A DNA stretch of 40,518 bases from Chitinophagales bacterium (lineage in GTDB: Bacteria > Bacteroidota > Bacteroidia > Chitinophagales > UBA2359): assembly GCA_020631035.1 (NCBI GenBank), contig JAHDIA010000003.1:1-40518 (forward strand), read 5' to 3'. Within the stretch, counting starts at the first letter, position 1; every line of letters starts with the position of its first letter. The translations under genes and the position numbers were made by a program. The notes under the pieces were generated by a model, which did no database searches, was not told the DNA's origin, and saw only the letters and a program-made list of their open reading frames with translations. Shown piece after piece: positions 446 through 38,304 of this stretch.

Positions 446-1018
446 TTATCTCAATCGCTGAAAGACATAGCCATTTTCAGACCAGCATTCATTGATGAAT
501 AGGTCGTGAGCATAGGCTTTATAGTCTATATAAGCCTTGATACTTTCAGGACAATTGGGATAGCACATATCAAAATGTTCAACAGCGTAGTTTTTTTCAC
601 TAGCATATTTACCACAGTAAGCAGACTGATATTTACTAAAGAGCTTTGTGGTATCTTCTCGGTCAAGTTTGTAGCCGTGGTGGTCAATAAAGAGTAGAAA
701 AGCATTGGTTTCATCTTCTGATTGATCTTCCAACAGTTCACAGACCTCCCAAAAGGTGGCAGAGATTCCGTACCGATGGATAAAGATTTCAGGGATTTCC
801 TCCCAATCACAGAAATGCCATTCCTCCCTTTGCGGAGTACCCAATAAAGGATCGGTTTTATCCAAGCCTTTCAAATAGGATTGAATGGCAGTATAGAAGT
901 CGTCTTGATCCTCATAATCACTCAAACTGAACCATTTGCCGATGAGCTTACCTGCATTGTAACTGGCAAGACAGCCCACCCAAACCTTAGCTTCACTAAG
1001 GTCAAAATTTTCATTCAT
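446..1018 (-). CDS. ardA: Antirestriction protein ArdA-like
   Basis: 190 aa, acidic; N-terminus AKVWVGCLASYNAGKLIGKWFSL resembles the ArdA start (xVYVGxLxxYNxGxLxGxWxxL). Confidence 0.85.
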   Translation of the reverse strand: MNENFDLSEAKVWVGCLASYNAGKLIGKWFSLSDYEDQDDFYTAIQSYLKGLDKTDPLLGTPQREEWHFCDWEEIPEIFIHRYGISATFWEVCELLEDQSEDETNAFLLFIDHHGYKLDREDTTKLFSKYQSAYCGKYASEKNYAVEHFDMCYPNCPESIKAYIDYKAYAHDLFINECWSENGYVFQRLR

Positions 1019-1234
1019 AAGTCTTTGTGTGTTTTAATGATTGACTAAAATTGTATTTGCGTGAAAGAACAAAACCAAGCAAGGGTATTAAAGTCTTTAA
1101 TCCCTCACATTGGACAAAGAATATTAAACACAAAGCAGAAAATTTGTCAAGCAAAAAGTGGATTTTAGAGAGCATCAAAAAAGTAGGAACTGAAAGATTT
1201 TGTAATACAGGCAATCTTGAAAAATATATTAAAT

Positions 1235-1288
1235 ACAGCTTTTACTGTTTATACAGCAAATACAGTTTTTGCAGTAAAAGCATTATTA
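1235..1288 (+). repeat. 9-bp tandem repeat array, copy 1 (6 units)
   Basis: acagctttt actgtttat acagcaaat acagttttt gcagtaaaa gcattatta; no indels. Confidence 0.85.
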
Positions 1289-1330
1289 AAAGAGCCAATC
1301 TTTCTCGTTGAGATGCCTAATAAAACCTTT

Positions 1331-5800: not shown

Positions 5801-7132
5801 ACTTCTGGTGGTGCAGAAGTGCAACGACCTCTGGCAACGGTTGTGATTGGCGGATTGATAACAGCCACCTTTTTAACCTTAGTCGTACTCCCGATTTTAT
5901 ATAGCTGGCTGGCGAAATGGCAGGAGCGCAAGGGAGGACGGACAACAACTGCAAGTGCATCTCTAATCATTCTGCCTTTACTATTTTTCAGTCTGTCTGT
6001 CGAAGCACAACAACGACCCGTAACAATGGATGAAGCAGTAGAAATGGCTGTCCAAAATCACCCTGTCATTCGAGCAACAGATTTACAAATTCAGCAAAGT
6101 GAAAGTTTAAAAGACTTGCCTTACTCACTTGGAGATACAGAAATCAGCTATCAGGGTGATGGGCTATTTAGAGAAAACGGACAACGGGTTAATCAAATCG
6201 GAGTAGTACAAAACATTCCCAACCCTGCATCAGTCAAAGCACAAAATGTTTTGCAAAATGAAATTGTTAAACAAAGCTATTTGGGTAAGGAACTGACCAA
6301 AAGAGAATTGATTTTAGAGGTCAAGCAAACCTATCTCGATTTACAGCAACGTAAGGAATTACGGCAAATCTACAAACAATTGTTACAGACCTACGAACAG
6401 TATCTCCAAATGGCAACAGTACGGGTAGATATTGGTGCAGCTAATAATATTGAAAAACTGACTATTCAATCCGCTTTGAGTGAATATCGCTTATTGCTTA
6501 ATCAATCCATTTTGGAAATTGAAAATCTGGAAAAACAATTAGTCAATCTTTTAAATACAGACCAGTCCGTTACTTCAACAGACAGCTTGACAATGATGGC
6601 TTTTGAATCAAGGGATAGCCTGAACAATTTACAGATACAAATTGCCAGTCAGGATATTTTAATTGAACAGGCAAATATTGAACTATTGAAAACAGATTTA
6701 AAACCTGATTTTAATATTGGTTACTCAACCCAAAATTACTTTGAGGGCGGTTGGCTTCACGGTTTACAGGCAGGAATAGATATTCCTCTTTTTAAGAAGC
6801 AAAACAAACAAAAAGTGAAAGCTCAAAAATTACAAATTGAGGTAGCCCAAATCAAACTTGATGTAAAAAAACAAAGGCTCAACCAAGAGTTATTGGCAAT
6901 CGAAAATGTCATTTATTTGTACAATTCTGGTGTAAATCATTATCAGGAACAACTGGAAAATATCAATCCTGAAATCATACGAATATCCAAACTCAATTAT
7001 GAAGCTGGGGAAATCTCCTACCTCGAATTGCTGAATACCTTAAATATTTCTTCCAAAAATCAAATTAGTTATTTGGAGCAGGTGTTAGCATACAATAAAG
7101 CGGTAGTGCTTCACCAATTTTTTACAAACTAA
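2825..7132 (+). CDS. CusA/CzcA-family heavy-metal RND pump fused to a TolC-like domain
   Basis: 1435 aa; GAIDFGLIVDGAVIIVEA HME-RND motif; C-terminus RPVTMDEAVEMAVQNHPVIRATDLQIQQSES is TolC-like. Confidence 0.93.
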   Translation: MFDKIIAYSIENKFIIGLLTLALIVWGAFSLRQLPIDAVPDITNNQIQIITISPTLATLEVEQFITTPVELALQNIQQLVEIRSISRFGLSVVTVVFEEDMDVYLARQLVGEYLKEAEDDIPDGLGTPEMAPISTGLGEIYQYVIRPEKGYEDKYSPMELRSIQDWIVKRQLSGIEGVVEINTMGGFLKQYEVAVDPNLLKSVGISITDILTALENSNENTGGAYIEKNPNTYYIRTNGIARSLTDLENIVVDVRNGRPILVKDVATVQFGKAPRYGALVRDGEEAVGGRVMMLKGANSAAVTERVKERVKQIKKSLPEGVIIEPYLVRDKLVSTAIGTVKTNLLEGGLIVIFILVLMLGNWRAGLIVASVIPLSMLFAVSMMNMLGISANLMSLGAIDFGLIVDGAVIIVEAIVHRLQVNFAGQKLTIAQMNNEVKTAAQKIRSSAAFGEIIILMVYIPILALVGIEGKMFKPMAQTVMLAIGGALILSLTYIPMMSALFLNKKITNKKTIADRIIAFFQRLYTPVLNLALRFKAFFVLVTIILFTISLFVFSRMGGEFIPTLEEGDLAMQQILPAGTSLSQSVEIASIIQKKLLKDFPEIEDVVVNIGAAEIPTDPMPVEIGDYVLVMKPKSEWTSASSRKEMFEKIEKSLSVIPGVGYEFSQPIQLRFNELMTGSKADIAIKLYGEDLDLLYNKAKEAESIITKIGGVGTVNVEQTIGMPQIIINFKYDKMAQYGLQVKEVNQVVRSAFAGESAGVIYEGEKRFDLVVRLDEKYRNGIADVQNLYITLDNGAQVPLQTVANVELIDAPMQISRENTNRRIVIGANVGDTDVETLVSKIQKELDLKIEIPAGYYFTYGGQFENLQAANARLMVAVPIALALIFIMLYFTFGSISQALLIFTAIPLSAIGGIWALELRGMPFSISAGIGFIALFGVAVLNGIVLIGYFNQLKKEGVTNIRERIIKGTSVRLRPVLLTASVASLGFLPMALSTSGGAEVQRPLATVVIGGLITATFLTLVVLPILYSWLAKWQERKGGRTTTASASLIILPLLFFSLSVEAQQRPVTMDEAVEMAVQNHPVIRATDLQIQQSESLKDLPYSLGDTEISYQGDGLFRENGQRVNQIGVVQNIPNPASVKAQNVLQNEIVKQSYLGKELTKRELILEVKQTYLDLQQRKELRQIYKQLLQTYEQYLQMATVRVDIGAANNIEKLTIQSALSEYRLLLNQSILEIENLEKQLVNLLNTDQSVTSTDSLTMMAFESRDSLNNLQIQIASQDILIEQANIELLKTDLKPDFNIGYSTQNYFEGGWLHGLQAGIDIPLFKKQNKQKVKAQKLQIEVAQIKLDVKKQRLNQELLAIENVIYLYNSGVNHYQEQLENINPEIIRISKLNYEAGEISYLELLNTLNISSKNQISYLEQVLAYNKAVVLHQFFTN

Positions 7133-25563: not shown

Positions 25564-25788
25564 ACAGCAAAAGCTATATTTACTGTACAAAATGTAAAAA
25601 CAGCAAATAATGTATAAGCAGTTTTAACAGAAAAAGCTACAAAAAATGTAAAAACTATATTTACAGTAAATGCTAACTTTGTATTAAAAACATTATTTGC
25701 TGTAAAAGTAATAAATAATATATATACAGCTATTGCATTAAAAACAGTTTTTGCTATATTTGCTGTAAATAATGTAAAAACAGCTTAT
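25564..25788 (+). repeat. 9-bp tandem repeat array, copy 2 (25 units), directly upstream of parA
   Basis: acagcaaaa gctatattt actgtacaa aatgtaaaa acagcaaat ... gctgtaaat aatgtaaaa acagcttat; no indels. Confidence 0.9.
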
Positions 25789-26461
25789 GGCAGCAAAAGT
25801 AATATCTGTGGCAAACATCAAGGGGGGAGTTTCCAAGACTTCTACTGGAATCTTTTTAGCTACGGCATTAGCCCACGATGACAGAAAAGTATTGTACTTG
25901 GATTGTGACAGTCAAGAAAGTGCAACCGAGTTTAGGACATTTGAAAAACAAACTGATTATGCCGAGACCCCCGAACCTTACAGAATCAGAAAGACAGACC
26001 CAACATTTTTATACGACTTGATTGAGGATATGAAAGCCAATCACGATGTAATATTTGTTGATCTTCCCCGACTGACGCACGGCAAAGAGGACAAAACCAT
26101 TGCAATGATCTTGGCTTTATGTGATTACATCTTGATTCCCATTAAGTCGGGTGAACTCGACAATATGAGTACAGCACGATTTGTTGAGATCATCAAAAAG
26201 ATTGCAGACCACAAAAAAGAGAGGGGGATTGATTACCTCTACGCTGGATTTGGCAGTATGACAGGCAAGCGACCCAGCGATGACAAGGCAGCAAAGGAAT
26301 TTATGGAGACATTGGAAATTCCAATCTTGGAAAATGATATGAAGGACTTAAAAGAGTTCTCACGTTCCTATACCTTTGAGAGCTTGTTAAATATAGGGAA
26401 AGCAGAAAAACAACGCTTTGAACCCTTTTACAAAGAAGTAGTAACCTTTTTTAATCTTTAA
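25787..26461 (+). CDS. parA: ParA-family partition ATPase
   Basis: VISVANIKGGVSKTSTGIFLATAL deviant Walker A; VLYLDCDSQESAT. Confidence 0.93.
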   Translation: MAAKVISVANIKGGVSKTSTGIFLATALAHDDRKVLYLDCDSQESATEFRTFEKQTDYAETPEPYRIRKTDPTFLYDLIEDMKANHDVIFVDLPRLTHGKEDKTIAMILALCDYILIPIKSGELDNMSTARFVEIIKKIADHKKERGIDYLYAGFGSMTGKRPSDDKAAKEFMETLEIPILENDMKDLKEFSRSYTFESLLNIGKAEKQRFEPFYKEVVTFFNL

Positions 26462-26465
26462 CAAT

Positions 26466-26732
26466 ATGGCAAAACAAAGAACACGCTTTACAGGCAATAA
26501 ATTAGATAAAAAGGAGGCAGAAGCCTTAGCAGAAGATATACTCGGCACAGAAAAAGAGCCTTCAAAAGAGAAGCCAAAGAAAACCAAGAAAAAACAGGCA
26601 GAGACAGCAAAAAGCAAAAAGAAGTTTCTGTATGTGAGTGAGGAAATACACAAGATGGCAAAACAAAAGGCGATTATGAATGATTTTAAAACGCTTCAAT
26701 CATACATCGAACACTTGATAGAAAAAGGCTGA
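26466..26732 (+). CDS. Small RHH-like protein, putative centromere-binding partner of ParA
   Basis: Lys-rich N-terminus plus KKKFLYVSEEIHKMAKQKAIMNDFKTLQSYIEHLIEKG; 4 bp after parA. Confidence 0.7.
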   Translation: MAKQRTRFTGNKLDKKEAEALAEDILGTEKEPSKEKPKKTKKKQAETAKSKKKFLYVSEEIHKMAKQKAIMNDFKTLQSYIEHLIEKG

Positions 26733-26733
26733 T

Positions 26734-26805
26734 ACAGTTTTTACAGCATATACTATATTTACAGTAAAAACAGCAAATACATTTTTTACAGTATTTACAG
26801 CAAAG
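26734..26805 (+). repeat. 9-bp tandem repeat array, copy 3 (8 units), directly after the parA operon
   Basis: acagttttt acagcatat actatattt acagtaaaa acagcaaat acatttttt acagtattt acagcaaag. Confidence 0.92.
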
Positions 26806-27177: not shown

Positions 27178-28293
27178 TTATGCTACAACCGATGTGCGCT
27201 CCATAATGTAGTCAGCAGCCTTTTGAGCTTGTTTGAAAGCAGAAAAAATGTAACGAGGGTTTTCCTCCAATGCTTTGAGCCAGCCTTTGAGATAAGCTGC
27301 GGAGTTGGTGATGGTTTTCTCATAGCCCAATTCAGCACAAATGAAAGCAGCCCCCAATTCAGCATACAGCTCTTCTCTTGCATAACTCTTTGAGCCAAAT
27401 CTTCCAGTCTGTTTGCGGTTCAATCGGCTTGGGTGTCCTGTCCAATGGCAGAGTTCGTGTAAAGCAGTTGAGTAAAACTCGTCCATTCCAGCAGTAAATT
27501 GTTCACGCAAAGGCAAGGTGATGGAATCAGAAGTAGGGGTATAAAAAGCCCTATTACAAGATTTTATCTCAATTTTTGCTCCTGAATCATTGAGTACTTG
27601 CTCTGCTCTTTGGTGTTGTTCTACTTGTGGCAATGGTTCTCTTTCCTCATACTTGTACCATTCTTCGGGCAAGCCTTCTGTTTGAAAAACATTGAATACT
27701 CTGTAACGTTTGAGCATTGGAATAAACTGAATATCCTTTGCGTTGATCTCTGCCTCACTCATTGTTTTCACTTCATCACTGGTGTAATACTTGCGGTTTT
27801 TATCCACGATGAGCGGCTTGAAAAAGTAAATTGGGCTTGATTTTTCTCCACGTTTCACATTTCCCCCTTGTTCCTTTGCCTGTTTGAATGTCAGCCAAGC
27901 ATTTTTGGGATAGTTTTTCATATCACCAAAGAAGCTAAGAAGCACTTTGTTGATGCCAGTATAAGGCTTGTCAGTTGTGATGTTTCGGCAGGGTAAGCCA
28001 TCAGTTGCCAATGAGATCCACGGTTTTACATAATTCAGTTTTTGATGTGTTTCCAGTAATTCAATGATGTTCTTGGCGACTTCTAAGTACAATTCATTTT
28101 GCACTTCTTTGGCTGTTTTCCTCTTTTTGGTAGCCATAAAATTATTCGGGTTTGTGTGTTCAGCATCGGTTAATAAGTCAAAGAATCCAGAAGCAGAACA
28201 CAGATTAAAAAATGTTTTTAGGTTCGGTGTTCCGTCCTTCTTTTTTGCTTTTACTGAAATCTTGGCAGTTGTCAAGTGGTCGGTGAATGTCAT
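27178..28293 (-). CDS. ardC: ArdC-like antirestriction protein (ssDNA-binding N-terminus plus zincin-like metallopeptidase)
   Basis: NAWLTFKQAKEQGGNVKRGEKSSPIYFFKP... FYSTALHELCHWTGHPSRLNR...YAREELYAELGAAF; likely start 28293, alternatively 28137. Confidence 0.88.
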   Translation of the reverse strand: MTFTDHLTTAKISVKAKKKDGTPNLKTFFNLCSASGFFDLLTDAEHTNPNNFMATKKRKTAKEVQNELYLEVAKNIIELLETHQKLNYVKPWISLATDGLPCRNITTDKPYTGINKVLLSFFGDMKNYPKNAWLTFKQAKEQGGNVKRGEKSSPIYFFKPLIVDKNRKYYTSDEVKTMSEAEINAKDIQFIPMLKRYRVFNVFQTEGLPEEWYKYEEREPLPQVEQHQRAEQVLNDSGAKIEIKSCNRAFYTPTSDSITLPLREQFTAGMDEFYSTALHELCHWTGHPSRLNRKQTGRFGSKSYAREELYAELGAAFICAELGYEKTITNSAAYLKGWLKALEENPRYIFSAFKQAQKAADYIMERTSVVA

Positions 28294-28749
28294 TGGAAAA
28301 GGGATTAGAGAATGAAAGGGCAGGGAGTTGTGCCTTGCCCTTGTAATTGTTGGATTGGGCAAAAACGGCTGCGGTCAAACGAAGTGAAGGAGGAATTGGA
28401 GAGGAGCGACAAGCATTCCTTGACCGAGTAAAGCCATTTTTGCGTATTGAGAAAAAAGATTGACAAGCGAAGAAAAAAGGGTATCTTTGGAGTACAACTG
28501 TGAAGCGGAAACAGGCTCTGCTGAGGAGCAACCTGCGAGGAATAACAGTTGTCGAGGGAGATAATCTCTGAGAGCCGTTTCAGTTGATGGAGCGGTTTTT
28601 CTTTTACCCAAACACTTTGAATTACAAAGTTGCGCAAGAATCAAAAACAGGACAAGCCACATCTTCCTCTGGCTTATGCCTTCCAAAACCTAAAGACAAA
28701 AATTCAAATCATAAAACAAGAGCGAAGCGAAAAATTAAATCTCAAAAAA

Positions 28750-28867: not shown

Positions 28868-29090
28868 TAAGGCGAGTAAATGTTACTCTAAGGCGAGTAA
28901 ATGTTACTTTAAGGCGAGTAAATGTTACTCTAAGGCGAGTAAATGTTACTCTAAGGCGAGTAAATGTTACCATTAAGGCGAGTAAATGTTACTAAGGCGA
29001 GTAAATGTTACCATTAAGGCGAGTAAATGTTACCACGTTTTTTAATGAAAAAAATAATTAAGGCGAGTAAATATTACCATTAAGGCGAGT
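28868..29090 (+). repeat. Iteron array type I upstream of repB (9 full copies plus 1 partial)
   Basis: TAAGGCGAGTAAATGTTAC at 28868, 28889, 28910, 28931, 28952, 28974, 28993, 29015, 29059 (variant ATATTAC), partial at 29081. Confidence 0.95.
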
Positions 29091-29127
29091 TGAAAAATTG
29101 ACATACTCTCCTTATTTTTGTAGTATT

Positions 29128-30540
29128 ATGATAGATTATAGCAAAATGACAAAAGAGGAGAGGCAGTTGGTAACAGTCCATTTGGCAAATAAAGTTATAG
29201 AAGGTTCAAGGCATATTAATATTTTGTCAGAGTTGTTTCTGTATTTTGTGATGGGAGAAATAGATTCAGATGCACGTTATCCATATCGCATTGTTACAAC
29301 TCGAAAAAAGTATGCTAAATTTCGAGGTCTGCCCAATGGTAAATTTAAATTTATTCGAAAACAGATAGATAGGATAATTGAGGATTTAAACGCAAATCCG
29401 CTTAAAGCCTATGACGATGAAGCAGAGGAATATGATGTACTTAATTGGGTTACTTCGATAAATTTGAGGAAAGATAAAATATATGTAAACTTAACACCAG
29501 AGGTAGGAGCGTTTCTGCTCTATAAAAAAGGGCAATCATTTACAAAGGTTTTACAAGATATAAGTGGATTTAAGAGTACAGGAACAGTTGCTATTAAAGA
29601 GATGATAGAAATTGACTTGTATAATAAATGGAAAAAATTAAAAATAGACCCTGAAAAAAAATTACCATACATAGATAAAGAAATTAGTGATATAAAATTT
29701 AAAGCGGGTATAGAAAGTAGTTATAAAAATTTAAGTGACTTTAAACGTTTTTTCTTGGATAGAGCTTGTAATGAGCTAAAAGACTTAAACTTTCCTATTC
29801 AATTTGAATATGATATGCTTAGTGAAGATGGGGAAATTTTAGAAACTGGGCGTAGAGGAGCAACACAAGTACGGTTTTACATTATAGATAAGCGAGAGGA
29901 AATGTTAGAAAAATGGGAGACAGATAAAGAACAACAAACAACTGTTGATGAAGTAATAGACGCAGCCAAACAAGAACACCAACAAAACTATAAAAAACAG
30001 TATCAATATTTAACAGGGTGGGGGATAGGTGAAGAAAAAGTTTATGACTTGATTGAAGAAAAAGGCATTGAAAAAATCCAACAAGCAATAGATGTGGTTC
30101 AAAGTACCCCAAATGTGAAAAATCCATCAGGCTTATTCTTAAAAGCATTACAGGGAGACTGGCAGACAGCACAACAAAAAGACCAAGAGAAAAAGCGGGA
30201 AGCTCGACAAAAAAACAAGGCACGAGTTGAGGCAGAAAAGCAAAAAGAAGCAGCAGAGAAGGCACGAAAAAGAGCTTATTATGAAGAACGCAAAGCCATT
30301 TGTGACAAATTGCTCACAGAGGAAAAAGGCTTAGAGTATTTTTATGAAAAAGCCAAAAACTATATAACAAGAACATTTTTACATTTCCATTTAGATAAAA
30401 CACCAGAACAAGTTTATCACAATGGGGGTATGACACTTGCTCAAATGATTTATGCCATAGAACAAGAATACCCTCAAAGTTTTGAGGAACTTCACGCCAA
30501 GTGTCCTGATTTAGTGGTACACTTTGAATTGGTGGAGTGA
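29128..30540 (+). CDS. repB: RepB-family (Rep_3-like) replication initiator
   Basis: KVIEGSRHINILSELFLYFVMGEIDSDARYPYRIVTTRKKYAKFRG...; iterons on both sides; ATG at 29128. Confidence 0.85.
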   Translation: MIDYSKMTKEERQLVTVHLANKVIEGSRHINILSELFLYFVMGEIDSDARYPYRIVTTRKKYAKFRGLPNGKFKFIRKQIDRIIEDLNANPLKAYDDEAEEYDVLNWVTSINLRKDKIYVNLTPEVGAFLLYKKGQSFTKVLQDISGFKSTGTVAIKEMIEIDLYNKWKKLKIDPEKKLPYIDKEISDIKFKAGIESSYKNLSDFKRFFLDRACNELKDLNFPIQFEYDMLSEDGEILETGRRGATQVRFYIIDKREEMLEKWETDKEQQTTVDEVIDAAKQEHQQNYKKQYQYLTGWGIGEEKVYDLIEEKGIEKIQQAIDVVQSTPNVKNPSGLFLKALQGDWQTAQQKDQEKKREARQKNKARVEAEKQKEAAEKARKRAYYEERKAICDKLLTEEKGLEYFYEKAKNYITRTFLHFHLDKTPEQVYHNGGMTLAQMIYAIEQEYPQSFEELHAKCPDLVVHFELVE

Positions 30541-30563: not shown

Positions 30564-30757
30564 TAAGGCGAGTAAATGTTACCAATTAAGGAGGGAGTCA
30601 TTGACCGCTACCTAAAATCATAGGAAAATAAGGCGGGAATCAATCACCAATAAGGCGGGAATCATTGACCACTATCCAAATCACGGGTTTTCTAAACAAA
30701 CAATCACAGGAAAATAAGGCGGGAATCGTTCACCGAGTAAGGCGAGTAAATATTACC
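30564..30757 (+). repeat. Mixed iteron array downstream of repB (types I and II)
   Basis: Type I at 30564 and 30738; type II (TAAGGCGGGAATCATTGACC-like) at 30587, 30629, 30651, 30715. Confidence 0.85.
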
Positions 30758-30859
30758 GTTGGGCAAAGTATGTGCTTTGCATCGTGAATTGATGTTGGTT
30801 CTGATAAAGGGTAGGGAATAGGTTTTTTTAAGGCATAGTGCGAGAAAGATGATCTCCTT

Positions 30860-30922
30860 TGATATAGTATTTGCTGTAAAAACTGTTTTTACTGTATAAA
30901 CATTAAATGCTGTAAATAATGT
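30860..30922 (-). repeat. 9-bp tandem repeat array, copy 4 (7 units, inverted orientation)
   Basis: tgatatagt atttgctgt aaaaactgt ttttactgt ataaacatt aaatgctgt aaataatgt. Confidence 0.85.
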
Positions 30923-30940
30923 ATTTTTCAGAATCAAAAA

Positions 30941-31177
30941 CTATAAAGATAAAAGCTCTTTGATTTCTTCTGTTTTATAAAGTAGCAAGCTATCTATTTG
31001 ATACAAAATTTCTAGGGTGTAATTGTCTAGCTCTTTTTGCCAATCAGGGCGATTGGGTGTTTCAGATACTCTTTCTGATTCTTGGTTGATTTTTTGCTCC
31101 AATGATAGTTTGAGTTCGTGCAAAAAATCAAGGGTTTGATGGGCTGGATTGTTGGCAGAGTGGGGGAGTGGGTACAT
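30941..31177 (-). CDS. Hypothetical small helical protein
   Basis: 78-aa ORF, coherent composition. Confidence 0.5.
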   Translation of the reverse strand: MYPLPHSANNPAHQTLDFLHELKLSLEQKINQESERVSETPNRPDWQKELDNYTLEILYQIDSLLLYKTEEIKELLSL

Positions 31178-32164: not shown

Positions 32165-35107
32165 ATGACAAGTTACGACAAGCTAATAAACATACTCCGT
32201 GAAGTATTCCAGATAGATCAAGCCGATTTAGATTTTGGGATTTACAAGATAATGAACCAAAGACGAGAGCAGATTAATCAGTTCTTGGAAAATGATTTAT
32301 TGACCCAAGTGGAAAGCATTTTGGCAGATGCTGTGGGTATTGATACCAGTGCCATAAAAGAGCAGTTGGATAAAGTGATTAGTGGTTTGAAAGCTGCTGA
32401 CTTTACCAAGACTGAAATAGAATTGAATCAAAAAGTCATTGGACTGAAAAAGGAATTGGCACAAGCTGGCGATAATACCATACTTCAAAATGATGTGTTT
32501 TCACATCTGACCAATTTCTTCAAACGCTATTACCACAAGGGCGATTTTATCTCGATGCGTCGGTATAAAAAAGATGTCTATGCCATTCCTTATGAGGGGG
32601 AGGAAGTAAAACTGCATTGGGCAAATCACGATCAGTATTACATCAAAACTGCGGAATACCTAAAGAATTACAGCTTTATGTTGCCACAGGGTAAAAAGGT
32701 GGTGTTTGAACTCAAAGAAGCCTCTACTGAAAAAGACAATAACAAGGCACAAAATGGCAAGGAGCGAAAGTTTAAAGTTTTTGAGGATCAGCCGTTGGAA
32801 GTGATAAGTGATAAAGTTCTAAAGATATACTTTACTTACAAAACAGAGAGCAAAGGAGAAAAGCAAGATGACCTAAACCAACAAGGCTTTGAAGCCATTA
32901 AAAGCCAACTCACCAAAGATTGGTTTGATGTACTGCAAGCCAAGCCAACTGAAAAGAAGAAAGACAGAACCTTGCTAGAAAAGCACATCAATGATTTTAC
33001 GGCTCGCAATAGTTTTGATTATTTCATTCATAAAGACTTGGGCGGTTTTTTGAATAGGGAATTGGATTTTTACATTAAAAATGAAGTCTTACACATTGAC
33101 GATATTGACCACGAAAAGCCTGACCAATTTGTAAAGCAGTTGAGTAAGGTAAAAGCCATCAAAGCCATTGCCCGAAAGCTCATTACCTTCTTGGCACAGA
33201 TAGAGGACTTTCAGAAAAAAATGTGGTTAAAAAAGAAGTTTGTAGTAGAAAGCAATTATTGCTTGACCCTTGACCACATTCCAGAAAGTTTTTACCCTGA
33301 AATAGTGGAGAATACCCGCCAATGGGACGAATGGGAAGAGCTGTTTGCCATTTCTGAAATAAAAGGGGAAAAGATAGAGATACTTAAAGCACAACCTTAT
33401 TTGGTGCTAGATACCAAATTATTTAGTGAAGATTTTAAGTTGCGACTATTAGCGGAAATTGAAGATATAGACGGCAAGGTGAATGGCTTGCTTGTTAATT
33501 CAGAGAATTTTCAAGCGTTGCAACTGCTTCAAGGAAAATATAACAATGAGGTGAAATGTATTTATTTAGATCCACCATATAATACAGGTAAAGACGGATT
33601 TAATTATAAGGATAATTTCCAACATAGTAGCTGGATTACGATGGCATTTGAAAGAATAAGTTTGGGAAAGTCTTTAATGAGCAAGAACGCTGGAATAGCA
33701 ATCAGTATTGATGATAATGAATTAAACCGACTTAGTTTTTTACTTAACAATGCGTTCGGAGAACATAATAAAATTGCAAATGTTATTTGGAAAAAAAGAT
33801 CAGGACCTCCAAATGATAAAAAAATAGGTACTGTTCAAGAATATATACCTGTATTTGCTAAAGATATATTAGAGATAGATTTACAGAATAAAACAAGAAG
33901 TGAAGAACAATTAAAAAGATATAAAAATCCAGATAATCACCCCAAAGGCAGGTGGGCTTCAGATAATTTGATGGCTAATGTTAAAGGTGGTAGGTATGTA
34001 GAATCACTTAATTTTCCAATTGAGAATCCAAATACAGGAGAGTCTCATTATCCTGGCAAAAATGGGAATTGGCGATTTAATAAAGAGAAGATAGAAAGGC
34101 TTTTGGAAAATAATGAGATTTATTTTGGTGCAGATGGTAAAGGAAGACCAAAACTAAAAAGGTTTTTATGTGATGTAAAAGAAGGTGTGCCTTTTTCTTC
34201 TTTGTGGGATTATTTACCCTATAATAATTCAGCATCTAAAAGTTTAGAAAGTATGTTTGGTGACATTAATATATTTGATACCCCCAAACCAGTTGAACTT
34301 ATAGAGGAAGTGATTAATTTAATTAATGGCAAAAAAAGTATAATATTAGATTATTTTGCAGGTTCAGCAACAACAGGACACGCTGTTATTAATCTAAACA
34401 AAAGTGATGGTGGAGATAGAAGGTATATACTTGTTGAGATGGGCGAGTATTTTAATTTAGTCACTAAACCCCGAATCCTCAAAGTCATTCATTCTCCCGA
34501 CTGGAAAGACGGCAAGCCCACCAATCGAGAAGGGGGCAGCTCACACATCATTAAAACTTTGCGCCTTGAAAGCTATGAGGACACCCTCAATAACTTAATT
34601 CTCCAAGACCATTTAACAGAGTATGCTGATTTGTTCAGCGATGCCAAGAACAAAGAAAGTTATATGCTCAACTATATGTTGGAAATGGAAAGCCGAGATA
34701 TGCTCTCCATTGAAGACTTTGAAAAGCCCTTTGATTACCAATTGACCATTACTGAAAATAATGAGCCAAAACCTACAAAGGTAGATATGGTTGAAACCTT
34801 TAATTACTTGATGGGCTTTAGCATCAAAACCCAAAAGCACACAGAAGAAGGCTACCGAGTATTGACCGCACAAAATAGGGCAGGGGAGAATGTGCTTATT
34901 ATTTGGCGTGATTTTGAAAAGCACAGCAACGAAGATTTACACAACTTTTTCATAGCCAACGGCTGGCACGAAAACCCATCATTCAAGCACGTTTATACCA
35001 ATGGGCGCACCACCTTATTGACCATCCGAAAAGAAACCGACAACTGGCAACTTCATCAGATAGAGCTTGAATTTCGCCAACGTATGTTTGATGTACAAGA
35101 CGTATGA
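32165..35107 (+). CDS. Type III restriction-modification methyltransferase (Mod), beta-class adenine MTase, with long N-terminal region
   Basis: LLVNSENFQALQLLQGKYNNEVKCIYLDPPYNTGKDGFNY (motif IV) then LDYFAGSATTGHAV (motif I). Confidence 0.9.
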   Translation: MTSYDKLINILREVFQIDQADLDFGIYKIMNQRREQINQFLENDLLTQVESILADAVGIDTSAIKEQLDKVISGLKAADFTKTEIELNQKVIGLKKELAQAGDNTILQNDVFSHLTNFFKRYYHKGDFISMRRYKKDVYAIPYEGEEVKLHWANHDQYYIKTAEYLKNYSFMLPQGKKVVFELKEASTEKDNNKAQNGKERKFKVFEDQPLEVISDKVLKIYFTYKTESKGEKQDDLNQQGFEAIKSQLTKDWFDVLQAKPTEKKKDRTLLEKHINDFTARNSFDYFIHKDLGGFLNRELDFYIKNEVLHIDDIDHEKPDQFVKQLSKVKAIKAIARKLITFLAQIEDFQKKMWLKKKFVVESNYCLTLDHIPESFYPEIVENTRQWDEWEELFAISEIKGEKIEILKAQPYLVLDTKLFSEDFKLRLLAEIEDIDGKVNGLLVNSENFQALQLLQGKYNNEVKCIYLDPPYNTGKDGFNYKDNFQHSSWITMAFERISLGKSLMSKNAGIAISIDDNELNRLSFLLNNAFGEHNKIANVIWKKRSGPPNDKKIGTVQEYIPVFAKDILEIDLQNKTRSEEQLKRYKNPDNHPKGRWASDNLMANVKGGRYVESLNFPIENPNTGESHYPGKNGNWRFNKEKIERLLENNEIYFGADGKGRPKLKRFLCDVKEGVPFSSLWDYLPYNNSASKSLESMFGDINIFDTPKPVELIEEVINLINGKKSIILDYFAGSATTGHAVINLNKSDGGDRRYILVEMGEYFNLVTKPRILKVIHSPDWKDGKPTNREGGSSHIIKTLRLESYEDTLNNLILQDHLTEYADLFSDAKNKESYMLNYMLEMESRDMLSIEDFEKPFDYQLTITENNEPKPTKVDMVETFNYLMGFSIKTQKHTEEGYRVLTAQNRAGENVLIIWRDFEKHSNEDLHNFFIANGWHENPSFKHVYTNGRTTLLTIRKETDNWQLHQIELEFRQRMFDVQDV

Positions 35108-38100
35108 ATCCCCTAGAAAAGAAAACAGTAATGGCAAAAAAGAAACAAGCAATAAGATTAAACGATGCGTTGGTACTGAACCGCTACCTATTACAACAGT
35201 TTGGCTTTGATGATTTGGAAACATTGAGCAGCAGTCTCAAAGAATCCAATTTGGAGCAGTACAGCGAAAATAATGAAAGCTACTTTTTTAAAGAACTGGA
35301 AAAGGTTTTGCCCGACTATGCCCCTTTGTCTGGTCAGCTTCAAAGCTATGATGAAAACATCATCAGTCATACCCTTGCCATTTCAGCCAATAGAGACGAA
35401 ACGATAAAGTGGAAATACTTTCAATATTTGAGCTTGCTATTTACAGAAGTCTATTTAGACCAATATTTTAAAGACAAAAAAGCACTACTCAAAAACATAA
35501 ATACCTTCATTGCAGAGTTTAATGATCCACTCAATGACAAGGTGAAAAATGAGACAGGAGCAGTTGTTGAACCTTACACAGAAAGTGAACTCAATACCCT
35601 TGCTTTTTGGAATGCCACAGGATCAGGCAAGACCCTTTTAATGCACATCAACATCAAGCAATTTCAGCATTATGCAGAAAAGTACGAAGCCGATGAGATC
35701 AATAAAATATTACTGGTTACACCCAATGAAGGTTTGTCGAATCAGCATTTAGAGGAATTTACCTTGTCGGGCATTGAAGCAGAGATATTCAGCAAAAAAA
35801 GCAGCGATGCCTTTTCAGGAAAGAATGTTGAGATCATTGAGATAAGCAAACTAGCCGAAACAAGCGGAGAAAAAACAGTAGCCGTTGAAGCCTTTGAAAC
35901 CAATAATTTAGTATTGATTGACGAAGGACACAGAGGAGTAGCAGGGGAGCAATGGAAAAGTCGGAGAGATACATTGAGTCTCAACGGATTTGCCTTTGAG
36001 TATTCCGCCACATTTGGACAAGCGGTGAGTGCAGCCAATGGAAAAGTCAAAAAAAGCCTTATTCAAGAATATGCCAAAACCATACTCTTTGATTACTCAT
36101 ACAAATACTTTTACAATGATGGTTATGGCAAAGACTTCTCCATACTGAACATACCAGAAGCCAATGAAGGGGAGTTTTTACAAAAGTATATGACAGGGGC
36201 ATTGTTGAGCTTTTACCAACAAAAAATAGTATTTGCCGAAAACGAAAAACAAGCCCAGCTCTTCCAGATAGAAAACCCATTGTGGGTGTTTGTCGGTTCG
36301 AGTGTCAATGCTGTTCGTACCGAAAAAAAACAAGCCAAATCAGATGTCATTGCCATCATCAGCTTCTTTTCAACTTTCATCAAAGATGAAGCAACAAGCA
36401 TCAAACACATAAGACAAATATTGGAAGGCGAGGACGGCATCATCAATGAGTATGGACAATCTATATTCCGCTATTCCTTTGACTACATCAGGCAAAAAGG
36501 CATAACCGCTGATGTCATTTACAAAGACATTTTACAAAGCGTATTCAATACCAATGTATCAGGCGCAAATGTATATTTAGACAATCTCAAAGGCGTTGAC
36601 GGAGAATTGGGGCTTAGAGTGGGAGATGGTGAATATTTTGGTGTCATCAATGTAGGTGATGAAAAGAAGCTGCACAAGCTATGTATGGCAAATAATGTAG
36701 AAGGGGGAGACAAAGAATTTGCCGTTTCATTATTTGATGAAATAAACAAGCCACATTCAAGCGTAAACGTTTTGATTGGTTCAAAGAAATTCACAGAAGG
36801 TTGGAGTTCTTGGCGAGTAAGCACAATGGGCTTAATGAATGTCGGACGAGGGCAAGGTTCACAGATCATACAATTATTTGGTCGTGGTGTACGATTGAAA
36901 GGGTATCAAAAGAGCCTCAAACGAAGCCGAGACTTAGACCGCCACCAGCAGCCCAAGAGTAAAATACCCAACTATCTACCCACTTTGGAAACCCTTAATA
37001 TATTTGGTATTCGTGCCGACTATATGATGAATTTCAAAGAGTATTTGAAAGAAGAAGGCTTGCCCACCGACTCAATGGAAGAAGTGAGCATACCAGTAAT
37101 GCCTACCATCAAACTAGACAATATCAGACTAAAGAAGATAGGCACAAAAGAAGGTGTGTCATTTGAAGCCGACAACCGCATACACTTGGTGATGGAAAAG
37201 AACCTATGCAAAGAAAGCACGGCTGTATTAGACTGGTATCCCAAAGTTCAATCTGTGCGCTCCAATGATGTAGCAGAGCAAGTGATTACCTATAAAAATA
37301 CCCGCAACTATTTACCCACATTTGTTGCTTTATTCCTTGATTGGAATGCACTATACAAAGAACTGTCTAAATTCACATCAGAGCGCAATTGGGAGAGCCT
37401 ACACTTTGACAACAATGACTTAAAAAAGATCCTTCAAACAAAAGGCTGGTTTACCCTTTACATTCCAGACACCGATGCCAATGCCAATGTACCCCAAAAA
37501 GGCGTATGGCAACAGATCGCAACGGCACTACTCAAACAATACTGTGAACGCTTTTACAACTACAAAAAGAACGAGTATTTATCCAAACATTTAGAGCTAC
37601 AAATCCTCACCCCTGATGATGAGAATTTTGAGGAAGAATACAGAATCTTAATCAAGGAGTCAGAGCAGAAAATCATTGAGAATTTACACAAGCTCAAAGC
37701 CGATATAGAAGCAGGCAGATTCACAGAAGATTTTAAAATTGATGGCAACAATTTCAAAGCCATTCACTACCTCAATCATTTGTACAATCCATTGTTGTAC
37801 CTCAATGGTAAGCAGTACCAAGACTTTGTGAAGATCACACCAGTTGCCCTTAATGATGGGGAGAACCGATTTATCAGCGATCTCAAAAAGTTTCACGAAA
37901 AACGTCCAGACTATTTTGATGGAAAAGAGTTGTATTTATTACGCAACAAGAGCAGAAGCGGAATAGGCTTTTTTCAAGCAAGCAATTTTTACCCCGACTT
38001 TATTTTGTGGGTAGTTGAGGGCGACCATCAGCACATCGTATTTTTAGACCCAAAAGGCTTGTTGAACATCACGGGCATCAATCACCCAAAGCTGCGGTTT

Positions 38101-38304
38101 CACCAGACCATCAAAACCGACATTGAGCCACAACTCAAAGACCCCAATATCAACCTTCATTCCTTCATCATATCCGTTACGCCACACAGCCGTTTAAAGC
38201 ATTGGCAGGGAGGAGAGACCATTGCAGACTTCAATGCTTGTGGTGTGTATTTTCAGGAGGATCAGGCGAGTAGTTATGTTGTGGAGATTTTGGAGGGGTT
38301 GTAG
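35104..38304 (+). CDS. Type III restriction enzyme Res subunit (DEAD helicase plus PD-(D/E)XK-like C-terminus)
   Basis: FWNATGSGKTLLMHINI, LIDEGHRG, FEYSATFGQ, QIIQLFGRGVRLKG; C-terminal FYPDFILWVVEGDHQHIVFLDPKG; ATGA overlap with Mod. Confidence 0.92.
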   Translation: MNPLEKKTVMAKKKQAIRLNDALVLNRYLLQQFGFDDLETLSSSLKESNLEQYSENNESYFFKELEKVLPDYAPLSGQLQSYDENIISHTLAISANRDETIKWKYFQYLSLLFTEVYLDQYFKDKKALLKNINTFIAEFNDPLNDKVKNETGAVVEPYTESELNTLAFWNATGSGKTLLMHINIKQFQHYAEKYEADEINKILLVTPNEGLSNQHLEEFTLSGIEAEIFSKKSSDAFSGKNVEIIEISKLAETSGEKTVAVEAFETNNLVLIDEGHRGVAGEQWKSRRDTLSLNGFAFEYSATFGQAVSAANGKVKKSLIQEYAKTILFDYSYKYFYNDGYGKDFSILNIPEANEGEFLQKYMTGALLSFYQQKIVFAENEKQAQLFQIENPLWVFVGSSVNAVRTEKKQAKSDVIAIISFFSTFIKDEATSIKHIRQILEGEDGIINEYGQSIFRYSFDYIRQKGITADVIYKDILQSVFNTNVSGANVYLDNLKGVDGELGLRVGDGEYFGVINVGDEKKLHKLCMANNVEGGDKEFAVSLFDEINKPHSSVNVLIGSKKFTEGWSSWRVSTMGLMNVGRGQGSQIIQLFGRGVRLKGYQKSLKRSRDLDRHQQPKSKIPNYLPTLETLNIFGIRADYMMNFKEYLKEEGLPTDSMEEVSIPVMPTIKLDNIRLKKIGTKEGVSFEADNRIHLVMEKNLCKESTAVLDWYPKVQSVRSNDVAEQVITYKNTRNYLPTFVALFLDWNALYKELSKFTSERNWESLHFDNNDLKKILQTKGWFTLYIPDTDANANVPQKGVWQQIATALLKQYCERFYNYKKNEYLSKHLELQILTPDDENFEEEYRILIKESEQKIIENLHKLKADIEAGRFTEDFKIDGNNFKAIHYLNHLYNPLLYLNGKQYQDFVKITPVALNDGENRFISDLKKFHEKRPDYFDGKELYLLRNKSRSGIGFFQASNFYPDFILWVVEGDHQHIVFLDPKGLLNITGINHPKLRFHQTIKTDIEPQLKDPNINLHSFIISVTPHSRLKHWQGGETIADFNACGVYFQEDQASSYVVEILEGL

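Follow-up and report, generated by a model that had tools for sequence, protein, structure and literature searches.

A 9-bp repeat array beside the iterons of a Bacteroidota plasmid contig as a putative secondary ParB-binding cluster

Partition and replication modules of the contig

The window that we analysed is the entire contig G000:C315, 40,518 bp long, from a Bacteroidota assembly of 852 contigs. Alongside par genes and a Rep3-family rep gene with iterons on both sides, it encodes a relaxase with its accessory protein, a VirD4-like coupling protein, metal-efflux and antirestriction functions and what appears to be a two-gene restriction-modification system; with this content a plasmid is the natural reading (Table 1). 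Copies of radC occupy both contig ends (1-277 and 40242-40518; 261 of 277 bases identical), and the contig probably broke at this repeat during assembly. The plasmid may therefore be incomplete and larger than the contig, and need not be circular. Two antirestriction genes, for ArdC (27178-28362) and ArdA, share the contig, and an adjacent pair at 32165-38304, a methylase gene followed by a helicase-type gene, looks like a putative type III restriction-modification system. A non-coding element at 1330-1425 (GCGTTAGGGATAGAAG...GAAACGGATAGCCCG) has relatives on 65 Bacteroides, Parabacteroides and Phocaeicola plasmid records, mostly unannotated, and in other contigs of the host assembly. No Rfam RNA family was found across the window.

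Table 1. Coordinates of the arrays, iterons and associated genes in the window
Feature	Position	Strand	Description
ardA	446..1018	-	antirestriction protein, PF07275, 1.3e-28; gene downstream of array D
Array D	1226..1288		7 units, 53.8 bits; 208 bp upstream of ardA start
Flank of D, homologous to left flank of C	1289..1328	-	sequence similarity
Array A	25564..25788		25 units, 155 bits; upstream of and touching parA start codon
Promoter match inside array A	25733..25762	+	TTG, 19 nt, TATATTTG; -7 element 25755-25762
parA	25787..26461	+	224 aa, type Ib-size Walker ATPase, AAA_31 1e-18
parB	26466..26732	+	88 aa; lysine-rich N-terminus, C-terminal ribbon-helix-helix-like domain
Array B	26734..26805		8 units, 66 bits; directly after parB
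Upstream iteron group	28868..29099	+	TAAGGCGAGTAAATGTTAC, nine copies and one degenerate
rep promoter match ending upstream iteron group	-7 at 29113-29120	+	TTG-20-TATTTTTG
rep	29098..30540	+	Rep3-family initiator, Rep3_C WH2, 1.6e-5
Downstream iteron group	30564..30756	+	canonical 30564, 30738; variants 30629, 30651, 30715; weaker 30587
Left flank of C, shared with D	30820..30863	+	AGGTTTTTTTAAGGCAT..CGAGAAAGAT
Array C	30864..30926		7 units RCWGY+W4, 57.5 bits; 9-bp register, 79% A+T

The partition system probably belongs to type Ib. Its ParA is of the small kind (about 200-230 aa), with the AAA_31 match starting at residue 3, a Walker A motif near the N-terminus and no match to a helix-turn-helix domain, and a candidate repeat centromere, array A, lies upstream; what makes the system a variant is a 9-bp self-complementary unit and the presence of two distal arrays. 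The Walker A motif reads KGGVSKT, with Ser where a congener has Gly (KGGVGKT). Starting 5 bp downstream of parA, parB encodes the presumed binder of all four arrays. ParB is likely, though not proved, to be a ribbon-helix-helix (RHH) protein: ParB itself has no Pfam RHH match, while its relatives weakly match the RHH families HicB, ParD and RHH_10. Fold prediction from two sequences was uninformative, whereas a model from five sequences has an extended stretch followed by two helices, a beta-helix-helix-like C-terminus, whose PDB matches, weak as they are at Foldseek E values above 2, come almost entirely from the RHH class (Arc, NikR, MazE, PrpA, NikA, VapB).

With a Rep3 initiator and direct-repeat iterons of 21-22 bp on either side of rep, the replicon is a Rep3 iteron replicon. 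We list rep from a TTG, and the true start may be an internal ATG. In the downstream group the variant iterons (TAAGGCGGGAATC...CACC) are mixed with canonical ones, and perhaps differ from them in affinity for Rep.

Four arrays of one 9-bp unit

The arrays share a unit that consists of RCWGY followed by four A/T positions, in which the core RCWGY reads identically on both strands. We used a position weight matrix (PWM), made symmetric because of this property of the core, that was trained on the 33 units of arrays A (25) and B (8) only, with array C held out. Beyond these two, the matrix detects C and D in the window and no other array. Against the 57.5 bits of array C, order-1 shuffling of the whole window, repeated 200 times, gave at best 26.9 bits and the maximum of an AT-rich intergenic null was 20.6 bits, while none of 20,000 Markov shuffles of the array C segment itself attained its score; the held-out matrix and the shuffles together rule out chance or AT-richness as the source of the array. 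Per unit, arrays B and C score about 8.2 bits compared with 6.2 for array A, so array C is no more decayed than A. A period scan that uses no model of the unit places all four arrays within the window's top six places (A twice), and none of the other places in its top twelve has a period of 9.

Within the host assembly the arrays are also confined to this contig. When the host assembly was searched by BLAST with array C, every match stronger than E = 0.1 fell on the contig itself, and no convincing further array was found elsewhere in that assembly. A self-complementary 4-unit pattern matches ten times on the window contig and on no other contig of the host; outside it, 6 of 198 other genomes have one match each, compared with two genomes for the same pattern read backwards as a control.

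Array C is flanked on one side by the rep/iteron region and on the other by a small ORF (30941-31177, minus strand) that reads toward it, and is 3' of both that ORF and rep. It overlaps neither an iteron nor a recognisable promoter. Bacteroidota promoters have the consensus TTG, 17-23 nt, TAnnTTTG, and a scan with it found no match in or by arrays C and D. Nor was a terminator found at array C, and the single-strand structure of C or D is no better than that of shuffles (z from -0.7 to -1.35).

A sequence-only reading of the region had quoted seven units at 30860-30922, which are present exactly as given; in the register of the other arrays, with the 5-bp core first, they occupy the span in Table 1. 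Its observation that the reverse-complement units ACAGCAAAT, ACAGTTTTT and ACAGTAAAA recur exactly elsewhere is borne out by the array after parB, array B, and its spacing of ~100 bp past the last iteron agrees with a gap that we put at 106 bp from the iteron at 30738. It described the array as the third, and as inverted. A separate array it is, but one of four, given array D, and although it does run mostly opposite to B, the term "inverted" means little because the core is self-complementary. By the centre base, array A is balanced (12 A : 13 T), B (7:1) and D read mostly in one direction and C (2:5) mostly in the other, a difference between B and C that reaches only p = 0.04.

Arrays C and D are close to one another. 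Aligned in reverse-complement register they are identical at 50 of 63 positions (79%), and the 13 differences comprise 10 at degenerate columns and 3 at C/G columns. All 10 of the former preserve the class of the column (A/G, A/T or C/T; that is R, W or Y). The similarity continues into a flank of about 40 bp, at a level equalled by 3 of 5000 shuffle pairs, and C and D share about 110 bp in all, in opposite orientation. On the strength of the class-preserving differences and the shared flank, the two arrays look maintained and not decaying. Since array D has no iterons beside it, arrays of this type are not specific to the origin, which counts against a purely origin-specific role. Elsewhere in the host, the flank element has matches at chance level only. 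The flank contains TAAGGC at 30829, which might pass for an iteron remnant yet is not scored by the iteron PWM. Neither does array D belong to the Bacteroidota repeat at 1330-1425; matches to that repeat begin near position 1330, past both D and the shared flank.

Arrays in related Bacteroidota

The nearest comparison is a congeneric plasmid, G001:C364 (JAHDGP010000019.1), with ParA 40% and ParB 44% identical to those of the window. Arrays of 9-bp units cover its parA promoter, follow parB (over about 470 bp) and lie 54-89 bp upstream of rep. On both plasmids the array upstream of parA has a TAnnTTTG -7 element within it or at its edge. The congener's rep has no similarity to that of the window and only a weak match to Replication initiator protein A. 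The array near this rep is a continuation of the arrays behind parB and lies upstream, not downstream, of rep, and the iterons behind rep have no array beside them; we count the former against the explanation of array C that we favour below. These iterons, at 6547-6869 of the congener locus (L060), are nine 23-bp repeats (TTTCACCGTGCTTTCGGTACACG).

In more distant loci the repeats upstream of parA are 8-bp arrays (Tunicatimonas pelagia, G006, G009, G227, G296, G484, G515 and G255), and G227 and G296 have a further array about where parB should end. No array adjoins rep on the Rep3 plasmid G009:C70, which also counts against our favoured explanation. Four copies of a ~50-bp element of 8-bp units stand immediately upstream of genes on that plasmid, at distances of about 6-13 kb to parA, and score 19-28 bits compared with a null maximum of 18. 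The copies (L176-L178; 81212-81261, 96110-96159, 99251-99306 and 100989-101043) are made of the units ACTT/GATT/AAGT/GTAT/GAGC, agree with the array that precedes the plasmid's parA and include TAnnTTTG-like sequence. Apparent 9-bp arrays in G003 are in fact Gly-rich coding repeats. Close relatives of parA or rep were found neither in the viral contigs nor in the plasmid records searched, and the searches found no plasmid with a homologous rep and origin against which to set the place of array C. Among the relatives surveyed arrays around parAB are the rule, at least two plasmids have distal ones, and the replication module has an array beside it in the window and, in a different form, in the congener.

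Proposed role of array C

Array C is very probably a ParB target, a cluster of binding sites outside the par locus, judging from the association of such arrays with a type Ib operon, the 9-bp arrays of the congener and the 8-bp arrays of distant loci. The sequence-only reading had likewise proposed the partition protein as its ligand, a proposal well supported at the level of sequence by the shared units, their restriction to the contig and their co-occurrence with a related parAB in the congener. In the mechanism that we infer, array C would be a secondary binding cluster for the plasmid's own small ParB, with ParB dimers, one per 9-bp unit, coating the 5-bp near-palindromic cores side by side. 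Array A, which covers the parA promoter, would act as operator and principal centromere, and arrays B, C and D, of 7-8 units each, accessory sites. Most likely array C would serve as an origin-proximal site for ParB loading and bridging, by which newly copied origin DNA would join the segrosome, and an effect of the coated array on the neighbouring iterons (on Rep binding or origin pairing) is possible but would be secondary. Taken whole, this explanation of array C as a secondary parS-like cluster with an origin-proximal loading and bridging function seems to us somewhat more probable than its negation; that accessory centromere is the main role of the array we propose tentatively.

In the type Ib systems that are known, short repeats are coated by RHH proteins. 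The closest precedent is delta/Omega of pSM19035 (type Ib, Firmicutes), in which a small RHH centromere-binding protein acts at separate arrays at different plasmid loci, a likeness that holds here as far as ParB is likely RHH. Its arrays have 7-10 contiguous short repeats of mixed orientation and overlap the copS, delta and omega promoters; one of them, through regulation of copS, has a part in copy-number control (PMC9499535, PMC5016525). ParA is fully activated with as few as four contiguous repeats in the orientations tested (PMC9499535), and by that yardstick array C, with seven, would be a competent partition site. The window differs in having 9-bp units with a self-complementary core in place of 7-bp WATCACW, in a Rep3/iteron replicon, and in that C and D overlap no promoter match, whereas every pSM19035 array lies on a promoter. 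Like an Omega-type regulon, the window has several arrays (A-D) on one replicon, but since promoter overlap is found for A only, we do not file the system as one. Other type Ib systems resemble parts of the arrangement. The centromere repeats of pCXC100 are about 9 bp long. This Leifsonia parABS system shares the repeat-based centromere (PMC5016525), though its repeats, unlike those of the window, are direct only. TP228 parFGH shares the parA-parB operon with an upstream array, and its RHH protein ParG also represses the operon; its centromere is one continuous site, together with an operator, upstream of parFG, made of degenerate short boxes with AT-rich spacers and with no distal arrays described there (PMC7308502), and it has a closer likeness in the 8-bp arrays found elsewhere in Bacteroidota than in the 9-bp array. 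On Vibrio cholerae chromosome II, as may be the case here, a partition protein meets an iteron-type origin: ParB2 and the initiator RctB compete for a 39-mer, and ParB2 increases the copy number of oriII even when parS is absent (PMC3688505). ParB2, for which a copy-number change is known, is a spreading ParB that competes at the 39-mers themselves, while array C is separate from the iterons.

By analogy with pSM19035 Omega and V. cholerae ParB2, the sequence-only reading's further suggestion, that array C could link the partition protein with replication or copy-number control, is plausible. Its strong form, in which ParB at array C directly affects iteron-Rep complexes by occlusion, stimulation or handcuffing so that the state of segregation sets initiation, is the leading rival to our explanation, and we consider it unlikely. 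The short distance from the last iteron speaks for it, as do the congener's units 54 bp upstream of rep and the precedents of ParB2 (PMC3688505), of Omega on copS (PMC9499535, PMC5016525) and of PrpA, a protein with an RHH domain that binds iterons and lowers copy number (PMC7848731). Yet array D, with 79% identity to C, stands without iterons, C itself overlaps no iteron and no recognisable promoter, and G009:C70, likewise Rep3, does without an array adjoining rep. In particular, the lack of a promoter match in C means that repression of a cop gene, in the manner of Omega at copS, is not what we see here. The seven units of array C, set against the four that Omega needs, favour the accessory origin-proximal centromere or loading site. 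Somewhat less probable again is that the arrays are chiefly operators of ParB acting as a plasmid-wide regulator, as Omega and KorB do, with C and D controlling neighbours such as ardA. Array A overlaps the parA promoter match, array D lies upstream of ardA, and the four elements of G009:C70 that match its parA-upstream array sit just upstream of genes; against this, neither C nor D has a TAnnTTTG promoter match in it or nearby, the ardA start is 208 bp away from D, and array C is at the 3' side of its nearest small ORF and of rep.

Two explanations remain. The roughly 110 bp shared in opposite orientation would suit a non-functional relic, in which C (or D) was left over, with its flank, from a duplication or a plasmid fusion. 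This we regard as quite improbable, as the consensus is undecayed in both arrays and the differences at degenerate columns are all class-preserving (p about 0.001 on the assumption that half of changes are class-neutral). Array C could also be the AT-rich unwinding element of the origin, sharing its 9-bp periodicity with the par arrays through composition only, since it borders the iterons and its 79% A+T is at about the 98th percentile of the window. That is very improbable: the motif is common to the par arrays base by base and scores far above the maximum of the AT-rich null (57.5 against 20.6 bits), array D is the same kind of array without iterons, and no TTWTNCACA DnaA box occurs within 28.4-31.3 kb apart from one inside rep.

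Partition systems of Bacteroidota plasmids are little studied, and in the literature searched we found none with distal arrays. The rule RCWGY plus four A/T every 9 bp offers a means of predicting ParB sites in related plasmids. Another way to view the arrays, which we think rather unlikely, is that an RHH partition protein organises the whole plasmid through them, at the centromere, at the origin (where C would alter Rep/iteron activity and copy number) and at antirestriction expression (D, upstream of ardA); if this were true, segregation, copying and establishment in a new host would share one switch. If ParB does sit both beside the origin and at ardA, the plasmid would provide a compact model of how segregation is linked to replication and to post-transfer establishment, and the Omega precedent would then reach a second phylum, a different unit length and a self-complementary core.
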